DNA of 64,000 nucleotides, from positions 1 through 64,000 of the forward strand of contig NZ_VTPS01000012.1 of NCBI RefSeq assembly GCF_008274215.1, in the 5' to 3' direction. Source of the DNA: Calorimonas adulescens (GTDB lineage: Bacteria > Bacillota > Thermoanaerobacteria > Thermoanaerobacterales > UBA4877). A program made the position numbers and the translations under genes. The notes beneath the pieces are model-generated. The model made no database searches. It was not told the DNA's origin and saw only the letters and a list, made by a program, of their open reading frames with translations. Of this stretch, positions 36,027-45,297 are shown piece after piece. Each line of letters starts with the position of its first letter. The first letter of the stretch is position 1.

Positions 36027-36566
36027 TTAAAACTTATAGACCTCAGGTTTTAATATCCCAATATAAGGCAGATTTCTGTATTTTTCAGCAAAATCCAGTC
36101 CATAGCCAACAACAAAAAGGTCATCTATAACAAAACCGGTATAATCTACCGGTACCTCCACCCTTCTCTTCTTTGGCTTGTCCAGTAGGCTGCATATACC
36201 CAAGCTGGCAGGCTTCCTATCCAGCAATACCTTTCTCAGGTAGCTCAAAGTAAGGCCACTATCGATTACATCCTCTACAATAAGTATATCCTTCCCCTCA
36301 ATACTGTAGTCCAAGTCTTTTATAATCCTTACCACTCCTGAAGATGTGGTTGACAGCCCATAACTTGACACTGCCATGAAATCCATTGATAATGGAAGCT
36401 CTATCGCTCTGGAGAGGTCTGCCAAGAACATCATAGCCCCCTTCAGTATGCAGAGCAGCATTAGATTTTTTCCCTTATAATCCCTGGTAATCTTCTGGCC
36501 AAGTTCACTCACCTTAGCCTTAATTTCATCTTCAGTTATTAATATTTTTTCTATATCCTCATGCAC
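36027..36566 (-). CDS. hpt: Hypoxanthine phosphoribosyltransferase
   Basis: Purine salvage from hypoxanthine or guanine plus PRPP. 179 residues; PRPP loop DILIVEDVIDSGLTLSYL and flexible-loop MAVSSYG are seen, with the C-terminal FVVGYGLDFAEKYRNLPYIG. GTG start behind AAAGGTG. Conserved order tilS-hpt-ftsH. Confidence 0.95.
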   Translation of the reverse strand: MHEDIEKILITEDEIKAKVSELGQKITRDYKGKNLMLLCILKGAMMFLADLSRAIELPLSMDFMAVSSYGLSTTSSGVVRIIKDLDYSIEGKDILIVEDVIDSGLTLSYLRKVLLDRKPASLGICSLLDKPKKRRVEVPVDYTGFVIDDLFVVGYGLDFAEKYRNLPYIGILKPEVYKF

Positions 36567-36630
36567 TGTAGCTCACACCTTTCTCGGCTGTTTTAGTATA
36601 CTAAGTCTGTTATAGCAAACAGATACATCC

Positions 36631-38019
36631 TTAGCCCGCCCTTATATCATTACTAAACACTATCCTCAGGACATTTTTTGTCTCTCTATCCACTTTATAT
36701 CTCTCACTTAGCCTCACCCCTGCTGCCCATACCACCTCGTCCCCATCAACAATAAGGGGGATATGGTCTCTCTTTTCCTTGGGTATCTTATTGTCAATGA
36801 AAAGCTCCTTCAGTTTTTTTGTACCTGTCATACCCAGCGGTGCTATCCTGTCTCCCGGCCTCCTGTTGCGCACGGCCAGGCCATTTTTGACCTTGTCAAA
36901 GTCAATATAGGCAGTGAGACGATTGTGTTCGAACTCAACCTCATCCCTTACCAGAAGCTCGGTCTTCAATACTGTACCAATCTCAGGGATAAAGACCTCT
37001 CGGCCGGGCTCTATCTCATAATAAAACATGCCAACCTTTTCTGTCGAACTGTTTCTGAATATTATTTTACCATAGCTGACCTCAACAACCAAACCATCAG
37101 GAAGATCCACACTGCTACCAGTTTGACATTTTAAAGCCAGCTTTACCACATCCTCAACATTTTTTAACCCTAGATTAAGATAATTACCCTTTACAAGCTT
37201 AACAGCATACCTGATAACCCTGTTTCTTATTGAAATCGGTAATCTCAAAAGATTTTGTATTTCTACAGTCACCCTGCCATCCTCATAATTTACAAAATCA
37301 TTTAAAAACTTGAGCACAATATCCTCAAAAAATTCCTCATCCTCGCGAAGCAGGGTAGCCGTCCTTGCAATAGAGTCTACCACATCAGGGTTAATCTCCT
37401 CCATAGCTGGCAAAATTCTCAATCTGACCCTGTTCCTGTCGTACACAGCCTCATAATTTGTGGCATCAATCCTCGGCTCAATACCTTGCAATGAGAGATA
37501 TTCTTCAATCTCACTTCTGCTAACCTCTATAAGCGGCCTTATAATCTTACCATTTACAGGCCTTATTCCCACAAGTCCAGTGGTACCGCTCCCCCTTATC
37601 AAATGCAGGAGAAATGTCTCCGCCAAGTCATTCTTATTATGGGCTACAGCAATTCTGTTTGCCTGTTTCTTTAAAGCTATCTCATTAAAAAACTCATATC
37701 TTACATTTCTTCCAACCAGCTCAGAGGAAAGGCCTGTCTTTTTAACAATCTCTGGCACATTGACCCTGCGCACAAAAAATGGCAGACCCAGGGTGCCGGC
37801 AATTTTCTCCACAAAAATGGCATCCTCATCCGCCTCAGTCCCCCTTATGCCATGATTAACATGAGCAACATACAGATTTAAGTCGAATGTCTCTTTAAGA
37901 CTGTACAGGATGTATAAAAGGCAAAGTGAGTCAGGACCACCTGAGACTCCCACTACAACTCCATCACCTTTTTCCAGCATATTATATTTTTTTATGGTGG
38001 CGATTACCTTGTCTTCCAT
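36631..38019 (-). CDS. tilS: tRNA(Ile)-lysidine synthetase
   Basis: Modifies C34 of tRNA-Ile(CAU) to lysidine. 462 residues: PP-loop SGGPDS at 26-31, VAHVNHGIRG, then a C-terminal TilS domain with RNRRPGDRIAPLGM and KKLKELFIDNKIPKEKRD. Same operon as the kinase upstream and hpt downstream. Confidence 0.96.
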   Translation of the reverse strand: MEDKVIATIKKYNMLEKGDGVVVGVSGGPDSLCLLYILYSLKETFDLNLYVAHVNHGIRGTEADEDAIFVEKIAGTLGLPFFVRRVNVPEIVKKTGLSSELVGRNVRYEFFNEIALKKQANRIAVAHNKNDLAETFLLHLIRGSGTTGLVGIRPVNGKIIRPLIEVSRSEIEEYLSLQGIEPRIDATNYEAVYDRNRVRLRILPAMEEINPDVVDSIARTATLLREDEEFFEDIVLKFLNDFVNYEDGRVTVEIQNLLRLPISIRNRVIRYAVKLVKGNYLNLGLKNVEDVVKLALKCQTGSSVDLPDGLVVEVSYGKIIFRNSSTEKVGMFYYEIEPGREVFIPEIGTVLKTELLVRDEVEFEHNRLTAYIDFDKVKNGLAVRNRRPGDRIAPLGMTGTKKLKELFIDNKIPKEKRDHIPLIVDGDEVVWAAGVRLSERYKVDRETKNVLRIVFSNDIRAG

Positions 38020-38031
38020 AAAAGTCAGCCC

Positions 38032-38898
38032 TCATAACACATATAATATTACACACACAAGAAAAATCAAGCTTGCCACTAAAATGATATTAATATAAAG
38101 GTCAAGGCAGTCTGCCTGAGCAACCTCAGCCAAGCCACACAGCATTGTAAGTCTTTCCCTTGTTTCGGCCAGGCCAGCATGGCCTTTAAAAACATCACTC
38201 ATAATACCATACAGTCTTGATGGGATAATACCAGATAACTTCCTCAAAATCAGGTCAATACCCCGCCTGTTAAATGAATACATATGAACCGGTATTAGAA
38301 GATTTGCTATAAACATCATTATCTCAAAAGCTGCATACCCATCGTCAGCCCGTCTGACGCCACAATCCCAGAATGCCCTGTCATAGACAGAAGTATATTC
38401 TCTCACCATACCACCAACCTCAGAAAGGCTTCCAAGGTCTATAAGGCGTAAAATACCATTTTTAGTGTCCAGCATCAGGTTTTCAGGCTTTAAGTCTGTA
38501 TATACATACCCCATCTTGAAAAACTCAGTAAAAATCTCTGCTATAAGGACGGCTATGCTGATTACAGTCCTTAAATCCAGCTTCCTTAATCTTATTATCT
38601 CAGCCAGGTTTTGCCCCTCTATATATTCTAATATTATATAGTGTTGTCTCTCATTATTCAATATAAAATCATCGATTTCATATGCTTCAGGCAAAAATTT
38701 TTTGTTTGTATTTTTAATAAATCTGTATTCCCGTGTAAGGCTTATTACATCGCTGCTGGCCTTAAGACAGTATTTCTTTTTATCCTTTAAAACAAGATAG
38801 GCAGCACCTATACCTCCCCTGCCAAGCGGTTTTATTATGGTATATGTGCTGCCACTCCAGAGCCCCGTTATCTTCTGTCCCGACCTCATAATTTCCAT
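38032..38898 (-). CDS. Membrane-anchored Ser/Thr protein kinase-like protein
   Basis: 288 residues. Kinase fold with a glycine loop (GRGGIG at 26-31), the ATP lysine (Lys46), a catalytic loop YTDLKPENLM near 135 in place of HRD, and DLGS in place of DFG. A single C-terminal membrane span (IILVASLIFLVCVILYV) anchors it with the kinase in the cytoplasm. The HRD-to-YTD change is unusual but the Asp, Lys and Asn are kept. It is six bases after the VWA gene, and both follow spoIIE. Confidence 0.85.
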   Translation of the reverse strand: MEIMRSGQKITGLWSGSTYTIIKPLGRGGIGAAYLVLKDKKKYCLKASSDVISLTREYRFIKNTNKKFLPEAYEIDDFILNNERQHYIILEYIEGQNLAEIIRLRKLDLRTVISIAVLIAEIFTEFFKMGYVYTDLKPENLMLDTKNGILRLIDLGSLSEVGGMVREYTSVYDRAFWDCGVRRADDGYAAFEIMMFIANLLIPVHMYSFNRRGIDLILRKLSGIIPSRLYGIMSDVFKGHAGLAETRERLTMLCGLAEVAQADCLDLYINIILVASLIFLVCVILYVL

Positions 38899-38904
38899 GA
38901 CTGC

Positions 38905-39606
38905 CTACACCAAACTCTCATAGGCCAGCGGTTTATCCTTAATAAGTTCTGCTGCAAACTCAATGGCTGAGGCAGTAGGTGTACCTCCACCTGTCACTAC
39001 CTCCATTACAATACTCTCCAGTTCGTCAATATCACTGGTAAAACCTTTCAACAGGTATGCCCCGTTTCTTTCTGATGGATAGCATATCACAGCAATCTGG
39101 GTCTCACCCTTCCTGGCTCCCAGTGACTTCAACAATTCTATAACTCCCCTTTTAGCTTCATCAATCTTATCTGCCATGCTTCCACTGGCGTCGATGACCA
39201 CGGCCACCTTGAGATTTGTCTCATCGGTGAGCCTGTTAATAAAGTCCACCACCTGAAATCTAAGTTCAGGATGTATCTCGTCTATGCCTTTTTTTAAGAC
39301 CTCCTTAAGTTCTCTGTCAACCACCTCGGTCAGGGTACCGGCAACAGACCTCATAGTGGCAGAGGTAAGGGTTTTCCCCAATTCGCTTATCCTTATGAGG
39401 TCATGCACTCCTCCACCTGCCCTTGCAATGCCCTTAATCTCTTTTAATGCCCTGTTGCTGCAGACGTTATCATCCACAACCCCTATGGCATTTATTATTA
39501 TCCCGTCCTTATGGACGTTTCCGGCAACTATACAGGGGTCCGGTCCAATATTGGAACACCCGTCTGTCACTATATTTATCAGTCTCATCGTCATGTTAGC
39601 AGACAT
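38905..39606 (-). CDS. von Willebrand factor A domain protein
   Basis: 233 residues. A MIDAS motif (DASGS near 143-147, preceded by KVAVVI) and GGGTPTASAI in the C-terminal part show a metal-binding VWA fold. No signal peptide, so probably cytoplasmic. AAGGAGG precedes the ATG. Found between spoIIE and the kinase, a pairing known in other clostridia, where its function is untested. Confidence 0.85.
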   Translation of the reverse strand: MSANMTMRLINIVTDGCSNIGPDPCIVAGNVHKDGIIINAIGVVDDNVCSNRALKEIKGIARAGGGVHDLIRISELGKTLTSATMRSVAGTLTEVVDRELKEVLKKGIDEIHPELRFQVVDFINRLTDETNLKVAVVIDASGSMADKIDEAKRGVIELLKSLGARKGETQIAVICYPSERNGAYLLKGFTSDIDELESIVMEVVTGGGTPTASAIEFAAELIKDKPLAYESLV

Positions 39607-39672
39607 AAAGATTCCTCCTTAATTTATGGTTTTATATCATTCATTATTTCCATAATAAGGAGGAAATATTCA

Positions 39673-42003
39673 TTATCCCCAGATTCTGGAAACCAATATG
39701 GTCATATCATCACCGGGTTTCCCTTTATTGAGCACCTGCTTCATCAGCTTCTCGGCCATTTCCTGAGGATTGCTGGTATCTATACCCTTTATAATCCCCT
39801 GTATTATGTCTTCCTTGTCTTCTCCATCTATACAGTCGATAACCCCATCTGTCATCATAACAAGCATATCCCCCTCATTTAAAATCCTCTTTACGGGCAA
39901 TATAGAAATTTCGTCCAGAGCTCCTGCTGGAAGGTTTTCATTTTTAACTGTATCTACAGAGTTTTTCCTCTTTATATAACTTACAGGAGCACCCATTTTA
40001 AAAGCCTCTACCTTCCCAGAATACCTGTCTATTATTGAAATATCCATGGTGGTATACATATCATCATGAGACTTTAAATTAAGTATAGAATTTATTGACT
40101 TTATCGTTATATCCTCTGTAAATCCAGAATTTAAAAATTTCTCTAAAAGTCCAACCGCCGTGCTGCTTATTATTCCAGCCTCTTTGCCTGTACCCATGCC
40201 GTCACCTATGGCCACGAGGTATCTGCCTCCTGAAAGTTCACTGAATATAAAGTTATCACCATTGCCGCTGTGTTCTTTTGCTATATGCGCTACACCTGTA
40301 GTGACGTTGTACCTTTCTCTTTCCACCAAGTGTATGGTACATGAGTTTTCCTTTCCGTCCAGTCTGCATACATCGTCCTTCCTCCTGTATCTCTTGCCCA
40401 TAACCCTTGATACAACAGGTTCAATTATTTTAGAACATTCGGCCTTACCAAAACAGGCCACCCTTTTTATAAAGACCTCATCGCTGCCGCTGTCGTTCTG
40501 CAGTACTATGACCTCTTCAGGAGTTATACCATCTTTATCCAATTCAACAAAAATCTCTTCCTCCAGATCCTCGCGGAAATGGTCGTGGGTCTTTATGGAG
40601 TCTGCCATGTTGCTTACAATTCGGCTTAAATCCTTCAGTTGCTCTGAAACAATCATCTGACTCTTATTAAGCCGCTTCTGCCACATGGAGTTTAACATGT
40701 AAAAATCATAGAGGTTGTTGATTTCCTTTATCATAGTATTTACGTGGATGCACCTGTTTTGTGGGACATCCTCGGCAGTAACCTCTCCCTTGAGCTCAAG
40801 AAGGGTTATCATGTCAAATATAAACTGATAGGTATAATAGAAATCCCTGCCCCAGCACTGATTACGTTTGATGCAGGACTCGCACACCTCATCTGCAGCC
40901 CGTGCTATAACCCTTGATATATCTTGTCTAACCATTACCGAGTTTCTTGCTCCGTCAAATACTGAAGCCAGCTCACTCATAACGCCAGACATGTCCTTAA
41001 GCCTGGTAAAGACAATATCCCTGGTCTTATGCATTAATTTTCTGCTGGATTTAAATCTCTCTATACTCCTGTTAAGGTACAAACTTAAGGCTTTAATCAT
41101 GCTCCGCGGTATCAAAAGACAGATGAAGCCGGAAAGCAAAAGCTCCTTTAAATAGATGGACATGACATATCCTGCTAATTTGTCCAATATAAAGTAGGAA
41201 ATAACAAGGCTGCTTACAGAACCTATTATGCCAAGGCTGCTGAATGCCCCAGCCAAGAGCCCTGCAAGCGAGAATAACAGCCCTGTTGAGGATGTCGCAG
41301 ACCCTGTGATCTGTGTGACAACTGCCATCAGCACGCCAACTGCAGCCCCTGCCCCAAGCCCGCCAGTGTAAGCTATTATGGTAAGCCCTGACATCGCCAC
41401 AATCATCCAGAGTGAAAGTCCATATACCCGGATATCCTTCAGGCTTGTAATAATAAGCCCATAGGTAATGCCTAAGGATATAATCTCCTCTTTGCTGAGA
41501 TACTTCCTTGATGTGGAGCCCTGTACTATATCCAGTGCATTGTCAAAGACAAATACCGTAGAAAACACAATTACAGATTCCAGCACCACTAATATCAGGT
41601 CATACATTATGCGTCCTGTTAAAAAATACATCACCAGGCCTACTGTAAATACCGCAGATGCGGTAATCAAGGCCCTTACATTGGCTTTTGCTACGGGCTT
41701 TAAAAAATATAAAAGGGCAGCAACGACTGCATAAGTTACTATATATCTTATGGTATTCGGAAACATGCCTGAACTGAGAAGCCCCAAAATGCAGAAGGCA
41801 GAGATGACTATGTTCGTTCTGTTCCTGCCTGTAATACTGCCTATATAGGCCAGGCCAAAGGGAAAACTTCCATAAAACACCCCGACCCTGCCTATAAAAA
41901 ATCCCATTATTGAGAGAAGCACAAATTTTTCTATAAAACTCCTAAGTTTGAATGTACCCTTCACAGTATCTGAAGCATTTCTTTCAACATTATCAGCATA
42001 CAT
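39673..42003 (-). CDS. spoIIE: Stage II sporulation protein E, PP2C phosphatase
   Basis: Dephosphorylates SpoIIAA to switch on sigma-F in the forespore, and helps place the polar septum. 776 residues: about ten N-terminal membrane spans (to about 310), a central FtsZ-interaction region, and a C-terminal PP2C domain with AIGDGMGTGKEA and MTDGVID. GGAGGG precedes the ATG. Regulation: see promoter at 42024-42056. Confidence 0.96.
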   Translation of the reverse strand: MYADNVERNASDTVKGTFKLRSFIEKFVLLSIMGFFIGRVGVFYGSFPFGLAYIGSITGRNRTNIVISAFCILGLLSSGMFPNTIRYIVTYAVVAALLYFLKPVAKANVRALITASAVFTVGLVMYFLTGRIMYDLILVVLESVIVFSTVFVFDNALDIVQGSTSRKYLSKEEIISLGITYGLIITSLKDIRVYGLSLWMIVAMSGLTIIAYTGGLGAGAAVGVLMAVVTQITGSATSSTGLLFSLAGLLAGAFSSLGIIGSVSSLVISYFILDKLAGYVMSIYLKELLLSGFICLLIPRSMIKALSLYLNRSIERFKSSRKLMHKTRDIVFTRLKDMSGVMSELASVFDGARNSVMVRQDISRVIARAADEVCESCIKRNQCWGRDFYYTYQFIFDMITLLELKGEVTAEDVPQNRCIHVNTMIKEINNLYDFYMLNSMWQKRLNKSQMIVSEQLKDLSRIVSNMADSIKTHDHFREDLEEEIFVELDKDGITPEEVIVLQNDSGSDEVFIKRVACFGKAECSKIIEPVVSRVMGKRYRRKDDVCRLDGKENSCTIHLVERERYNVTTGVAHIAKEHSGNGDNFIFSELSGGRYLVAIGDGMGTGKEAGIISSTAVGLLEKFLNSGFTEDITIKSINSILNLKSHDDMYTTMDISIIDRYSGKVEAFKMGAPVSYIKRKNSVDTVKNENLPAGALDEISILPVKRILNEGDMLVMMTDGVIDCIDGEDKEDIIQGIIKGIDTSNPQEMAEKLMKQVLNKGKPGDDMTILVSRIWG

Positions 42004-42088: not shown

Positions 42089-42122
42089 AAAAAAAGACAC
42101 ACCCGCATGGTGTGTCTTTTTT
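42089..42122. terminator. Bidirectional terminator after the B12 mutase-like gene
   Basis: GACACACC/GGTGTGTC arms with a five-base loop, A-run before and T-run after. It ends the minus-strand mutase-like operon six bases after its stop. Confidence 0.85.
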
Positions 42123-42127
42123 GCCGG

Positions 42128-43780
42128 TTATGCCGGCACCCTTTCAGTGCTATTGAGTATCCTGTCAAGCCTTTCCCTCTCAGCAAGGACCCTGCCATCC
42201 TTTTCGTCATAGGCATATAGAGCTCCATTGATAAGCCTTGTGGCAAGGGTACCATTGGCCATACTGTTTCCCTTAAGATGGGGGGCATCCAGGATCCCCA
42301 TTTTTATAGCCCTGGCTATCACTATAGGGTCAGCAAGAGGGTCTTTTGAGCCTTGCCCTACGGCCTTGACAGCATCAATTATTGCAAGGGCATCGGCCAC
42401 CAGTTCGTCCTTGCGCCTCATTATTTCTCCATCGGCGGTGACATCAGGAGCTCCCTGCATATGGTTCTTTACAACACCTCTCACCAGTTTTGCGCTCTCT
42501 ATCACATCCTCTGGAGTTGCAGCATGGTGAGCCTCACAAAATCCCACCACATGATAGATATGGGGTTTTATAGCCATAGCTGTATAGCATGATGCGGCAA
42601 GCTGCCCCTTGGCCATGTAAAGGTCGGTGGGGAAGCTGGCCAGGCCCGCTCTTGCCTGCCTGTAGGTTATAAAGTCATCATCATGGAGTGATTCCACCAG
42701 TTCAATAGCTGCAAGCATTTTTGCTATATCCATCCTTGGAGACTCGTTGGGAGGAAGGTTAAACATATACTGGGCAACATAGTGCCTTACACCCATCTTT
42801 TTGGCATTGTATGCCGCAAGGTATGAGGCTGCCACATATATGGCATCGTGGGCATCCCTCAAACCCCAGTGGTGGGCCTCATTAACCTCTACAGGCACTC
42901 CCCTCTCTCCATGCCATCTCATGAGCTGTTGATTTTCTGCTATAGAGGTTACAAGGTCCCTCGGTCCCCTGCCATCCAGCCGGTTATACCAGCAGAGGGG
43001 GATGGCTGCCCAGGCATTGTGTATGGTATCTAAAAGCATCTTTGCCATTTCAAATACATTATTGGTACCGCTGTAGCATCTTAATAGAGGATAGTTCCCT
43101 GTTCTTGAATTTTCATACAATGCCTTGAAATCTTCCGCAGTACGTAGGGGTGCTCCTCCTGCCCCATCAAGGTCATGGTCCATTTTTTCAGGCTCAAAGA
43201 AGTGTTCCTGGGCATTTTGGTCGGGGGCAATGGATATGACATCAACCACCTTTGACTCGGCAATCTTTCTCACACCCTCAATGGTCGCCCCAAGGTCAGG
43301 AAGCCCAAAATGGTGTCTTATTACAGGGAATGGATATTTGCTTTCTATCCTGCCTATCAGGCTTTGAGGATAAATCTCATTCTTTTCCCTGTTATCCTCT
43401 ATGCCCTTCAGATACATGATGGTATCATCCATGTCCCCCGACCCATCAAATATTTTTTCAAATATCCTGTACTGCCTTGCAACATCGGCCGTTGGCTCAG
43501 TACCTCCAAATACCCATTTTATATCCTTGAGCCTGTATCTCTCTATTCCAGAATCTATTTTATCGAGTAACGGTTTTAATGCAGATGGTGTAAGCCTGTA
43601 GCTTATGCCTACCATGTACGGGCTGTGCTCAATTGCGGCCTCAATGATCCTTTCTGGCGCCACGGCAGGCCCCATAAACATGGTATCGTAACCCTGTTCC
43701 TCGGCTAACTTCAGGAAGTTCATAATACCTGCTACATGGACGTCGTTGCCAAGTGCGGCTGCTATTATTAGCCTCTTCAT
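42128..43780 (-). CDS. B12-dependent mutase-like protein: cobalamin domain fused to a glutamate-mutase-E-like barrel
   Basis: 550 residues. The N-terminus is a cobalamin-binding domain with DVHVAG (Asp13, His15, Gly18), the base-off/His-on motif, followed by MGPAVAPERIIEAA and WVFGGTEP. From about 150 on a barrel-like region follows (GAGGAPLRTAED, CWYNRLDGRGP, WHGERGVPVEV, AHHWGLRDAHD). The last 60 residues parallel the end of methylaspartate (glutamate) mutase E in order (ARAIKMGILDAPH then NGTLATRLINGALY), from memory. Glutamate mutase has the two parts on separate chains; here they are fused and the substrate-site arginine region differs. Start overlaps the opine dehydrogenase stop (ATGA). 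Substrate unknown. Confidence 0.7.
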   Translation of the reverse strand: MKRLIIAAALGNDVHVAGIMNFLKLAEEQGYDTMFMGPAVAPERIIEAAIEHSPYMVGISYRLTPSALKPLLDKIDSGIERYRLKDIKWVFGGTEPTADVARQYRIFEKIFDGSGDMDDTIMYLKGIEDNREKNEIYPQSLIGRIESKYPFPVIRHHFGLPDLGATIEGVRKIAESKVVDVISIAPDQNAQEHFFEPEKMDHDLDGAGGAPLRTAEDFKALYENSRTGNYPLLRCYSGTNNVFEMAKMLLDTIHNAWAAIPLCWYNRLDGRGPRDLVTSIAENQQLMRWHGERGVPVEVNEAHHWGLRDAHDAIYVAASYLAAYNAKKMGVRHYVAQYMFNLPPNESPRMDIAKMLAAIELVESLHDDDFITYRQARAGLASFPTDLYMAKGQLAASCYTAMAIKPHIYHVVGFCEAHHAATPEDVIESAKLVRGVVKNHMQGAPDVTADGEIMRRKDELVADALAIIDAVKAVGQGSKDPLADPIVIARAIKMGILDAPHLKGNSMANGTLATRLINGALYAYDEKDGRVLAERERLDRILNSTERVPA

Positions 43781-44877
43781 AACGACACCTCCTTCTCATA
43801 AGCAAAGTTACCTTCAGCATATGCCAGTATCTCGTCTTTTGTTAACCCATCTAAACCCAATCTTCTGGCATTTCTTCCGTTCTCCCAGTAGTCTATGCCG
43901 TGCATACAGGATGCCAGTTGTATTACAGACTTGATTGTGGGCGTATCCACACCCACCTCATTGCCAAGAGAGGCAATAGGCACAAGGCTGTTTGGGACAT
44001 CCTCAAATATATACCTTGTGTTCACGGTTGCTGGTGCCTTTATACCCTTATAAGCCCTTGTGTTCTGGATGGCCTCATAGAGTGTCTTCCCCTTGGCTCC
44101 GTATGTCTCTTCCAACCATTTTTTTGCTGAAGGCAATTTTATGCCCAGCGCCCTTGCCACTCGAAGCCTCTCCATATCTATCCTCTCCAAAACAGTAGCC
44201 ACTGAGGGGGATACACCTTCAAGATAATATTCAAAACCGTCATTATCAGCCTCTATTCTGCCTGTATTAAGCAGTGTGGGTGCCGGGTGAAATACTGCCC
44301 CAATGTTATTAAGACTCGTCTCCAGCACATTTTTGGCAGGCACAAACTGCGGATATGCCTTATTTATCATCTTTACGGTAGGCCAGACCATAAATGAAGG
44401 TATTGTGGCAAAGAACACGATGTTTTTTACACTGTTAATCCTTATAGTCCCTGGCTCTTTCTCTCTGCAGGCATAAATAAGGGTCTCTGCCTCTCCTATA
44501 GTTACTCTTCTGTCCATGTTAAGCTGCCTTAAGATATTGTTAAACTCAAGAGCCCCTCCTGTCCTTCCCGGGTTTAATACAATCACCTGACCGTCTTTAA
44601 GGTAAGGGATTACGGCATAAGCAATATCCCTGTGCCCTGAGGCAGGCACCGTAACCATTATAATGTCTGCATCCTTTACCGCTTCCCTTATATCAGAGGT
44701 AAGGTCCGGTGTTCCAAAACCCTCTACCTCTCCCTCTAAGGTTATGCCTCCCCTTTGCCTTAACCTCTCTATCTTCTCTGGAGACCTGTTATATAGGGTT
44801 ACGTCAAAGCCCATGATAGAGAGGTGCGCAGCCATAGCCTGGCCGCCGTTTCCAGCACCAATTACTGCAAACTTCAT
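43777..44877 (-). CDS. NAD/NADP octopine/nopaline dehydrogenase family protein
   Basis: About 366 residues. N-terminal Rossmann motif GAGNGG (7-12) and a G3P-dehydrogenase-like first domain, then the opine dehydrogenase C-terminal domain with NIGAVFHPAPTLLNTGRIE (substrate His). These enzymes reductively join an amino acid to a 2-oxo acid, or act on related N-alkyl amino acids. ATG at 44877 lies six bases after GGGGAG. First gene of a two-gene operon with the B12 protein, under two ydaO-type riboswitches. Confidence 0.85.
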   Translation of the reverse strand: MKFAVIGAGNGGQAMAAHLSIMGFDVTLYNRSPEKIERLRQRGGITLEGEVEGFGTPDLTSDIREAVKDADIIMVTVPASGHRDIAYAVIPYLKDGQVIVLNPGRTGGALEFNNILRQLNMDRRVTIGEAETLIYACREKEPGTIRINSVKNIVFFATIPSFMVWPTVKMINKAYPQFVPAKNVLETSLNNIGAVFHPAPTLLNTGRIEADNDGFEYYLEGVSPSVATVLERIDMERLRVARALGIKLPSAKKWLEETYGAKGKTLYEAIQNTRAYKGIKAPATVNTRYIFEDVPNSLVPIASLGNEVGVDTPTIKSVIQLASCMHGIDYWENGRNARRLGLDGLTKDEILAYAEGNFAYEKEVSL

Positions 44878-44894
44878 AGACAACTCCCCTTTCT

Positions 44895-44996
44895 ACGCTT
44901 ACGAGGTTAGCTGACGGGTTAGGGCTGAAAGAGTTGGCCCTTCCTTACGGATTCACCCCGGATAGTTGGTTCCCCCGCTCCTTTTGGATTCAGCGT
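44895..44996 (-). ncRNA. c-di-AMP riboswitch (ydaO/yuaA type), gene-proximal copy
   Basis: Conserved blocks of the ydaO aptamer in order on the minus strand: GCTGAATCC, GGAGCGGGGGAACCA, GGGGTGAATCC, CTCTTTCAG, AACCCGTCAGCTAACCTCG, TAAGC. P1 closes with ACGCT/AGCGT. This family is known to bind cyclic di-AMP and usually turns genes off. The Shine-Dalgarno AAAGGGGAG (44884-44892) begins two bases after P1, and no terminator lies between, so this copy probably works on translation. Confidence 0.92.
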
Positions 44997-45086
44997 TAAT
45001 TTAATATTATATTTAATTTTATACTGCAGAATACGGACATTCCTCATCTGCAAAACCTATTTCTGTAGCAGAATATAAACTTTAGT

Positions 45087-45118
45087 AAAAGAAAAGCTAT
45101 GGAGAAACCATAGCTTTC
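45087..45118 (-). terminator. Terminator between the two riboswitches
   Basis: AAAGCTATGG/CCATAGCTTT arms with a five-base loop, then TCTTTT on the minus strand. It lies 24 bases after the distal aptamer, as expected for its expression platform. Confidence 0.85.
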
Positions 45119-45120: not shown

Positions 45121-45141
45121 TAGTCTACTCTCCTCTTTCAA

Positions 45142-45240
45142 TGCTTACGAGGTTAGCTGACGGGTTAGAGCTGAAAGAGTTGCTCTTCCTTACGGATTCA
45201 CCCCGGATAATTGGTTCCCCCGCTCCTTTCGGATTCAGCA
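45142..45240 (-). ncRNA. c-di-AMP riboswitch (ydaO/yuaA type), promoter-proximal copy
   Basis: Same conserved blocks as the proximal copy, differing at only a handful of positions, including compensatory changes in one helix (GAGC..GCTC here versus GGGC..GCCC there). It is followed by a Rho-independent terminator, so this copy probably acts on transcription. Two aptamers in series would sharpen the response. Confidence 0.92.
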
Positions 45241-45268
45241 GTTAATTTAATATTGAATTGGTGATTTT

Positions 45269-45297
45269 ATTTTAATATAATAGAATGGATTTGTCAA
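45269..45297 (-). promoter_or_regulatory. Promoter of the tandem-riboswitch leader
   Basis: TTGACA (45292-45297), 17 bases, TAAAAT (45269-45274), about 22 bases before the distal aptamer. Confidence 0.7.

Follow-up and report, generated by a model that had tools for sequence, protein, structure and literature searches.

A c-di-AMP riboswitch-linked operon for a CENDH-type opine dehydrogenase and a B12-dependent mutase-like enzyme, the proposed core of a compatible-solute pathway

The window analysed here is the whole stretch of 64,000 nucleotides from Calorimonas adulescens (contig NZ_VTPS01000012.1). A covariance-model search with Rfam found exactly two c-di-AMP riboswitches in the window (RF00379, gathering cut-off 38 bits), and both precede an operon of two genes on the minus strand. 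This bears out the preliminary description of the locus, in which c-di-AMP riboswitches were said to control the gene pair. The features are given below in the order of transcription.

45269..45297, minus strand: sigma-A-like promoter, TTGACA-17-TAAAAT, with 11/12 consensus matches, the best site on the strand; aptamer 1 starts 18 nt further on
45128..45250, minus strand: c-di-AMP riboswitch aptamer 1 (RF00379), 101.5 bits, model positions 1-134 of 134
45092..45118, minus strand: intrinsic terminator 3' of aptamer 1, an 11-pair stem with a T-rich tail behind it, folding z-score -3.5
44882..45005, minus strand: c-di-AMP riboswitch aptamer 2 (RF00379), 101.0 bits, model positions 1-134 of 134
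44884..44892, minus strand: Shine-Dalgarno AAAGGGGAG, read from the sequence, within the 3' end of aptamer 2
43777..44877, minus strand: CENDH-type opine dehydrogenase, 366 aa, PF02317 (Octopine_DH) 7e-51
42128..43780, minus strand: B12-dependent mutase-like enzyme, 550 aa, PF02310 (B12-binding) 1e-11
42089..42116, minus strand: operon terminator, a stem-loop with U tract, folding z-score -6.1, no shuffle folding as well

The ATG of the mutase gene overlaps the TGA of the dehydrogenase gene (ATGA), and the succession of promoter, tandem aptamers, two overlapping genes and terminator has the make-up of a complete transcription unit. Promoter, riboswitches and terminators lie outside the span of the preliminary description (42128-44877). 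The match of aptamer 2 stops 4 nt short of the dehydrogenase start codon and no terminator of its own was found between this aptamer and the gene; the placement of the Shine-Dalgarno suggests that aptamer 2 may control translation. The same tandem-aptamer arrangement is present in a sister-genus genome (L004). As such the doublet is already known, since 77 c-di-AMP riboswitch doublets have been published, most of them with a terminator between the aptamers (PMC9481103). The window shares this inter-aptamer terminator, whereas its second aptamer ends at the Shine-Dalgarno and lacks a terminator of its own.

The 550-residue protein is composed of two domains.

43397..43780, minus strand: cobalamin domain of the base-off/His-on type, residues 1-128, PF02310; H15 and G18 invariant
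42161..43381, minus strand: glutamate-mutase-E-like TIM barrel, residues 134-540, VIA-align Z 32.1 to 6h9e_B

PF02310 scores above its cut-off in the window protein and is matched in 53/53 family members. The cobalamin domain announced in the preliminary description therefore stands, although the DxHxxG motif attributed to it is not general: the window protein has DVHVAG at residues 13-18, and among the 78 relatives His15 and Gly18 are always kept while the Asp is replaced by Cys in 67. An AlphaFold2 model of the mutase was built from a 53-member alignment (pLDDT 91), and the best PDB match of its barrel is the E chain of glutamate mutase (6h9e_B, 16% identity, rmsd 3.1 over 376 residues); lysine 5,6- and ornithine 4,5-aminomutase come next with Z 27-30, and against methylmalonyl-CoA mutase Z is about 21. 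With its invariant-His cobalamin domain and mutase TIM barrel the protein belongs to the adenosylcobalamin mutase superfamily, and a cobalamin adenosyltransferase is encoded in the same genome. The earlier assignment of a glutamate-mutase-E-like barrel holds for the fold but not at the level of sequence family, as the match to MutE (PF06368) reaches only 24.0 bits, under the curated cut-off of 26.6. Moreover, a TIGR01503 search of the window's genome gave no match, and no close characterised homologue of the protein was found in PDB, Pfam or NCBIfam.

In glutamate mutase the carboxylates of the substrate are bound by an arginine claw, R66, R100 and R149 (PMC10947579). A profile alignment places the mutase family colinearly on true MutE along 369 columns (20% identity), and in this alignment His157 falls on R66 and Tyr236 on R149, with the position of R100 ambiguous. 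An invariant arginine (Arg155 and Arg234) precedes each of the two by two residues on each strand, and E416, the counterpart of Glu330, is invariant in the family. At 20% identity it is moderately secure that the claw arginines are not kept at the aligned positions. Should this register be correct, the carboxylate site would lie one strand layer away from that of glutamate mutase, as might be expected if the substrate is not glutamate. The window mutase therefore resembles glutamate mutase (MutE/MutS; 1cb7, 6h9e) in its barrel fold, its invariant-His cobalamin domain, its colinear alignment and E416, whereas it differs in being one fused chain with the cobalamin domain at the N-terminus, in an identity of about 16-20% and in the two replaced claw residues. 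Glutamate mutase identity was ruled out by the sequence cut-offs together with these residues, though the fold is the closest. The PLP lysine of ornithine aminomutase (3kow) presumably sits in its khgg segment, and this segment is unmatched in the mutase-family alignment; a PLP-dependent aminomutase of the lysine 5,6 or ornithine 4,5 type was ruled out for this reason.

The gene of the mutase-associated ATPase MutL adjoins the mutase gene in 4 of the best 80 of 99 loci, an association that glutamate mutase shares. MutL as a universal partner was rejected because of this low count and because its best match in the window's genome is below the cut-off. A distant relative reads as a single cobalamin-barrel-MutL-like protein of 1214 aa, its MutL part recognised by eye, encoded beside another opine dehydrogenase.

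The first gene of the operon had been described as an opine-type dehydrogenase, and the PF02317 match agrees with this. CENDH (PDB 1bg6) is matched along its whole length, with 397 bits, by a profile built from 50 relatives, and the window protein is 45% identical to this Arthrobacter enzyme. The CENDH residues Lys156, His202, Tyr280, Arg292 and Tyr293 are kept in 71/71 family members, as K151, H197, Y276, R288 and Y289 in the window protein. We take His202 to be an active-site residue of CENDH and added it to the set. The others were named from the sites of a directed-evolution study (PMC6033044). Judged by homology over both domains, catalytic His and substrate-site residues, the protein is a CENDH-type opine dehydrogenase, and opine chemistry would be retained in its family. 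Three positions are changed uniformly among the 71 members: Ala111 to Arg (Arg105 in the window protein), Asn198 to Gly, and Tyr259 to Leu or Met. The same Arg is present in two distant dehydrogenase paralogues that adjoin B12 proteins. The amino-acid substrates known for CENDH are hydrophobic (PMC6033044); because the invariant Arg105 replaces Ala111, one substrate of the window enzyme is probably acidic or carries an extra carboxylate. Taken alone the dehydrogenase is an ordinary CENDH-type enzyme, and beyond these three changes it is the B12-mutase partner and the c-di-AMP control that set the window system apart. The rise of the transcript of an "octopine dehydrogenase", Teth514_2108, in an ethanol-tolerant Thermoanaerobacter mutant (PMC3751872) may be relevant to enzymes of this type, going by the annotation name.

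Relatives of the mutase are encoded in 99 stretches of a GTDB-based collection, and the mutase was found in 85/398 genomes drawn from the phylum. The dehydrogenase gene lies directly upstream in 78 of the best 80 of the 99 loci. One of the two exceptions (L031) is cut off by a contig edge within the mutase gene and the other (L011) is truly unlinked. Both the coupling of the two genes and their co-occurrence in other genomes, the latter proposed as a check in the preliminary description, are thereby confirmed across several phyla, among them Bacillota, Armatimonadota, Thermotogota, Thorarchaeota and others. A V-type-ATPase-like cluster (c3-c5, c8-c10; read by eye) near some loci was dismissed as lineage synteny, being confined to about nine MAGs.

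A third enzyme, an amide-forming ligase that is absent from the preliminary description, recurs beside the pair. In 18/80 loci the adjoining gene encodes an ATP-grasp enzyme resembling D-Ala-D-Ala ligase, and in 16 of these 18 it is co-directional with the pair and either overlaps or is separated by about 100 bp at most. Seven other loci have an Asn-synthetase-like gene instead, and both ligases together occur in 0/80; in most of the 80 the pair has no ligase beside it. Ten operon-linked Asn-synthetase-like genes, further loci included, branch together in a clade that excludes true AsnB (100/100). The glutaminase Cys is kept in some of these relatives and lost in others, so that the nucleophile could be ammonia or an amine. 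Since two interchangeable ligase types, both amide-forming, occupy the same slot, the product is likely to be amidated or peptide-like. Some ligase genes separated from the pair have a riboswitch of their own, before an ATP-grasp gene in G165, G199 and G276 (L182, L195, L196) and before an Asn-synthetase-like gene in G088 and G391 (L183, L186). In L152 the riboswitch precedes an Asn-synthetase-like gene that adjoins the operon, and in G075 (L234) riboswitch, dehydrogenase and ATP-grasp genes follow one another.

The window's genome has an unlinked orthologue of the ATP-grasp gene at C5:25258-25875(-), which shares 59% identity with the copy linked to the operon in L074 and is not the true Ddl of the genome; no riboswitch was found within the 10 kb examined around it. 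It is likely to be the pathway ligase of this organism. An Asn synthase of Thermoanaerobacterium, Tsac_2392, rose 47-fold in a strain that had been evolved at high osmolarity (PMC5577258). It could not be tied to the operon clade, since in a genome of the same order three unlinked riboswitches were examined and all drive wall-type genes.

An operon riboswitch, defined as an RF00379 match within 5.5 kb upstream of the mutase gene on the same strand, is present in 38 of the 80 mutase-bearing genomes, belonging to 16 families and 24 genera, against a chance expectation of 0.12; one of the 38 (G423) scores 35.3 bits, slightly below the cut-off. Four more genomes (G324, G403, G412, G360) have a dehydrogenase unlinked to the mutase with its own riboswitch (L187, L199, L203, L211), bringing the genomes with a dehydrogenase behind a riboswitch to 42/80, or 42 of the 62 that carry any RF00379 match. 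The pair does not always come with a riboswitch, a point that the preliminary description had proposed to check: about half of the genomes lack one nearby and 18/80 have no RF00379 match, which makes c-di-AMP control common, though not essential to the pathway.

Elsewhere in these genomes c-di-AMP riboswitches drive wall genes (NlpC/P60, LysM, RlpA-like) and transporters, namely Trk for K+, KimA-like permeases, the OpuA type for betaine, SulP-like proteins and an ABC transporter of the oligopeptide type (PF00496). PF00496 and the families that went through Pfam were named by model match, all others by inspection of the sequence. In the window's genome, which also encodes a diadenylate cyclase, the third riboswitch precedes a gene of the NlpC/P60 type. 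As wall hydrolases are likewise under these riboswitches, the messenger alone is no proof of an osmolyte role. These genomes nevertheless contain riboswitch-controlled biosynthetic genes beside other osmoregulatory targets, the pattern expected of a c-di-AMP-controlled compatible-solute pathway.

The wall genes raise the question of whether the pathway serves the cell wall. The mutase and dehydrogenase would then make an unusual amino acid or opine block that the D-Ala-D-Ala-ligase-like enzyme joins into the peptide stem, under c-di-AMP control shared with the wall hydrolases. This would agree with the riboswitches on NlpC/P60, LysM and RlpA-like genes of the same genomes and with the ATP-grasp ligase, whose closest PDB entries are D-Ala-D-Ala ligases. 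We nevertheless consider it unlikely, as an Asn-synthetase-like enzyme takes the ligase slot in other loci, most loci are without an adjoining ligase, and the pair is present on a Thorarchaeota chromosome record (L063). Archaea of this group are not known to have peptidoglycan. Between a solute and a wall precursor, both of which had been suggested, the regulon favours the solute.

The permeases of the riboswitch-controlled oligopeptide-type transporters are mostly 60-66% identical to the products of the genes that immediately precede the pair in L018, where a peptidase C26 family gene stands between transporter and pair. Such a transporter could re-import a staphylopine-like metallophore (it would be of the Opp/Nik type) after the dehydrogenase had completed the chelator, and opine dehydrogenases do make zincophores. 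Staphylopine-type clusters have in common with the window system the opine dehydrogenase and, in some relatives, the Opp-type transporter. However, known opine zincophore clusters need a nicotianamine-synthase-like enzyme (PMC7438024), and none is found among those recurrent neighbour clusters for which an identity was obtained. In addition, the dehydrogenase is CENDH-like and has a B12 mutase as its partner, and the genes co-regulated by c-di-AMP serve K+, betaine and the wall, not metals; a metallophore is highly improbable.

The peptidase gene in L018 would also suit a fermentative or catabolic role, in which the two enzymes would break down amino acids or opines, with redox balance kept by the dehydrogenase. 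The hosts are mostly anaerobes, and glutamate mutase and MutL are parts of glutamate fermentation in such organisms. Moreover, the strain that CENDH came from had been enriched on an opine (PMC6033044). Degradation is quite improbable all the same, since there are no recurrent downstream catabolic genes, the recurrent partners are ATP-consuming ligases, and the c-di-AMP control is shared with genes for K+ and betaine uptake.

The conserved linkage, the repeated riboswitch control of separated pathway genes and the presence of K+ and betaine uptake genes among the other riboswitch targets argue instead for an osmoadaptation pathway that c-di-AMP would repress. Our main reading, to which we give a probability of about 0.6, is that c-di-AMP represses the operon and that its enzymes form the biosynthetic core of a route to a compatible solute derived from an opine, the product probably being amidated or resembling a peptide. 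The direction of regulation is taken by analogy from known ydaO switches, and the substrates, order of steps, product and role are those that we infer from the enzyme families and the regulon. When turgor and K+ are sufficient, c-di-AMP would be high, transcription would be ended after aptamer 1 and aptamer 2 would probably block translation, so that the operon is off; under osmotic stress c-di-AMP would fall and the operon would be expressed. The dehydrogenase would couple an amino acid and a 2-oxo acid reductively to an N-carboxyalkyl amino acid. The second protein would be an adenosylcobalamin-dependent, PLP-free carbon-skeleton mutase, rearranging either the amino-acid precursor or the opine. 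The ATP-grasp or Asn-synthetase-like ligase would then make an amide, giving a peptide-like solute, and the oligopeptide-type ABC transporter that is c-di-AMP-controlled in relatives may import the product.

A comparable case is known from Dehalobacter, where a Na+/c-di-AMP gate acts on a precursor gene of N-epsilon-acetyl-beta-lysine and a c-di-AMP riboswitch represses production of the osmolyte precursor (PMC9337991). Osmolyte synthesis under a c-di-AMP riboswitch would be common to both systems, with repression in the present one inferred, whereas the enzymes differ, being here an opine dehydrogenase and a B12 mutase. Literature searches on this combination returned nothing relevant; an earlier mention of an octopine dehydrogenase may exist in the gene lists of Block 2010 and Nelson 2013, reportedly the first lists of ydaO-associated genes.

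More tentatively, at somewhat less than even odds, the solute may represent a widespread new class of osmolytes, a pseudo-dipeptide or amidated opine, occurring in many anaerobic bacteria and some archaea. A new family of adenosylcobalamin radical mutases would shape its carbon skeleton, and it would be the work of three enzymes, namely the dehydrogenase, the mutase and either of the two unrelated ligases. Its synthesis would be controlled by c-di-AMP, and possibly so would its uptake through the peptide-type ABC transporter.

If the proposed pathway is true, a large group of anaerobic bacteria would make a protective metabolite by B12 radical chemistry under an essential second messenger. This is directly testable, as several of the hosts are cultivated (Thermoanaerobacter, Thermoanaerobacterium, Caldanaerobacter). 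It would add a new mutase family and provide a natural physiological role for CENDH-type opine dehydrogenases. Moreover, it would link c-di-AMP homeostasis to cobalamin supply.

Among the c-di-AMP riboswitches compared, nine loci (L178, L181, L188, L192, L194, L218, L220, L223 and L224) carry an oligopeptide-type ABC transporter behind the riboswitch. In locus L018 the dehydrogenase-mutase pair is immediately preceded by genes for permeases closely related to those of this transporter. The target of the third riboswitch in the window's own genome (G000) is a predicted wall hydrolase of 224 residues, with SH3 and NlpC/P60-type domains.

G000:C7:36276-36411, minus strand; L088 4600-5274: third c-di-AMP riboswitch and its target gene

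SulP-like anion transporters appear to follow the riboswitch in L204, L207 and L208, and genome G405 has two riboswitches (L202, L210), each upstream of a putative DapB-like (dihydrodipicolinate-reductase family) gene. To our knowledge DapB-like genes are not usual targets of this riboswitch.

Downstream of the window operon lies a cluster whose genes, on a reading of the sequence only, resemble those for a spoIIE-like phosphatase, a VWA-like protein, a kinase-like protein, tilS and hpt.

Window 36027-42003, minus strand: gene cluster downstream of the operon

A divergent opine dehydrogenase also adjoins a protein of 1214 residues in locus L121 (genome G161, contig C59), and this arrangement is, as read, a second and more distant version of the pairing. 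Another divergent pair is present in L123.

L121 1739-5383: 1214-residue protein, apparently cobalamin domain, MutE-like barrel and MutL-like ATPase

In L152 (genome G391) two riboswitches are separated by about 2.4 kb, one 5' of the Asn-synthetase-like gene and the other 5' of the pair. The N-terminal glutaminase cysteine has been lost from the operon- or riboswitch-linked Asn-synthetase-like enzymes of L008, L049, L067, L079, L183 and L186, and is retained in relatives. This loss suggests that the nucleophile may be an amine rather than glutamine-derived ammonia.
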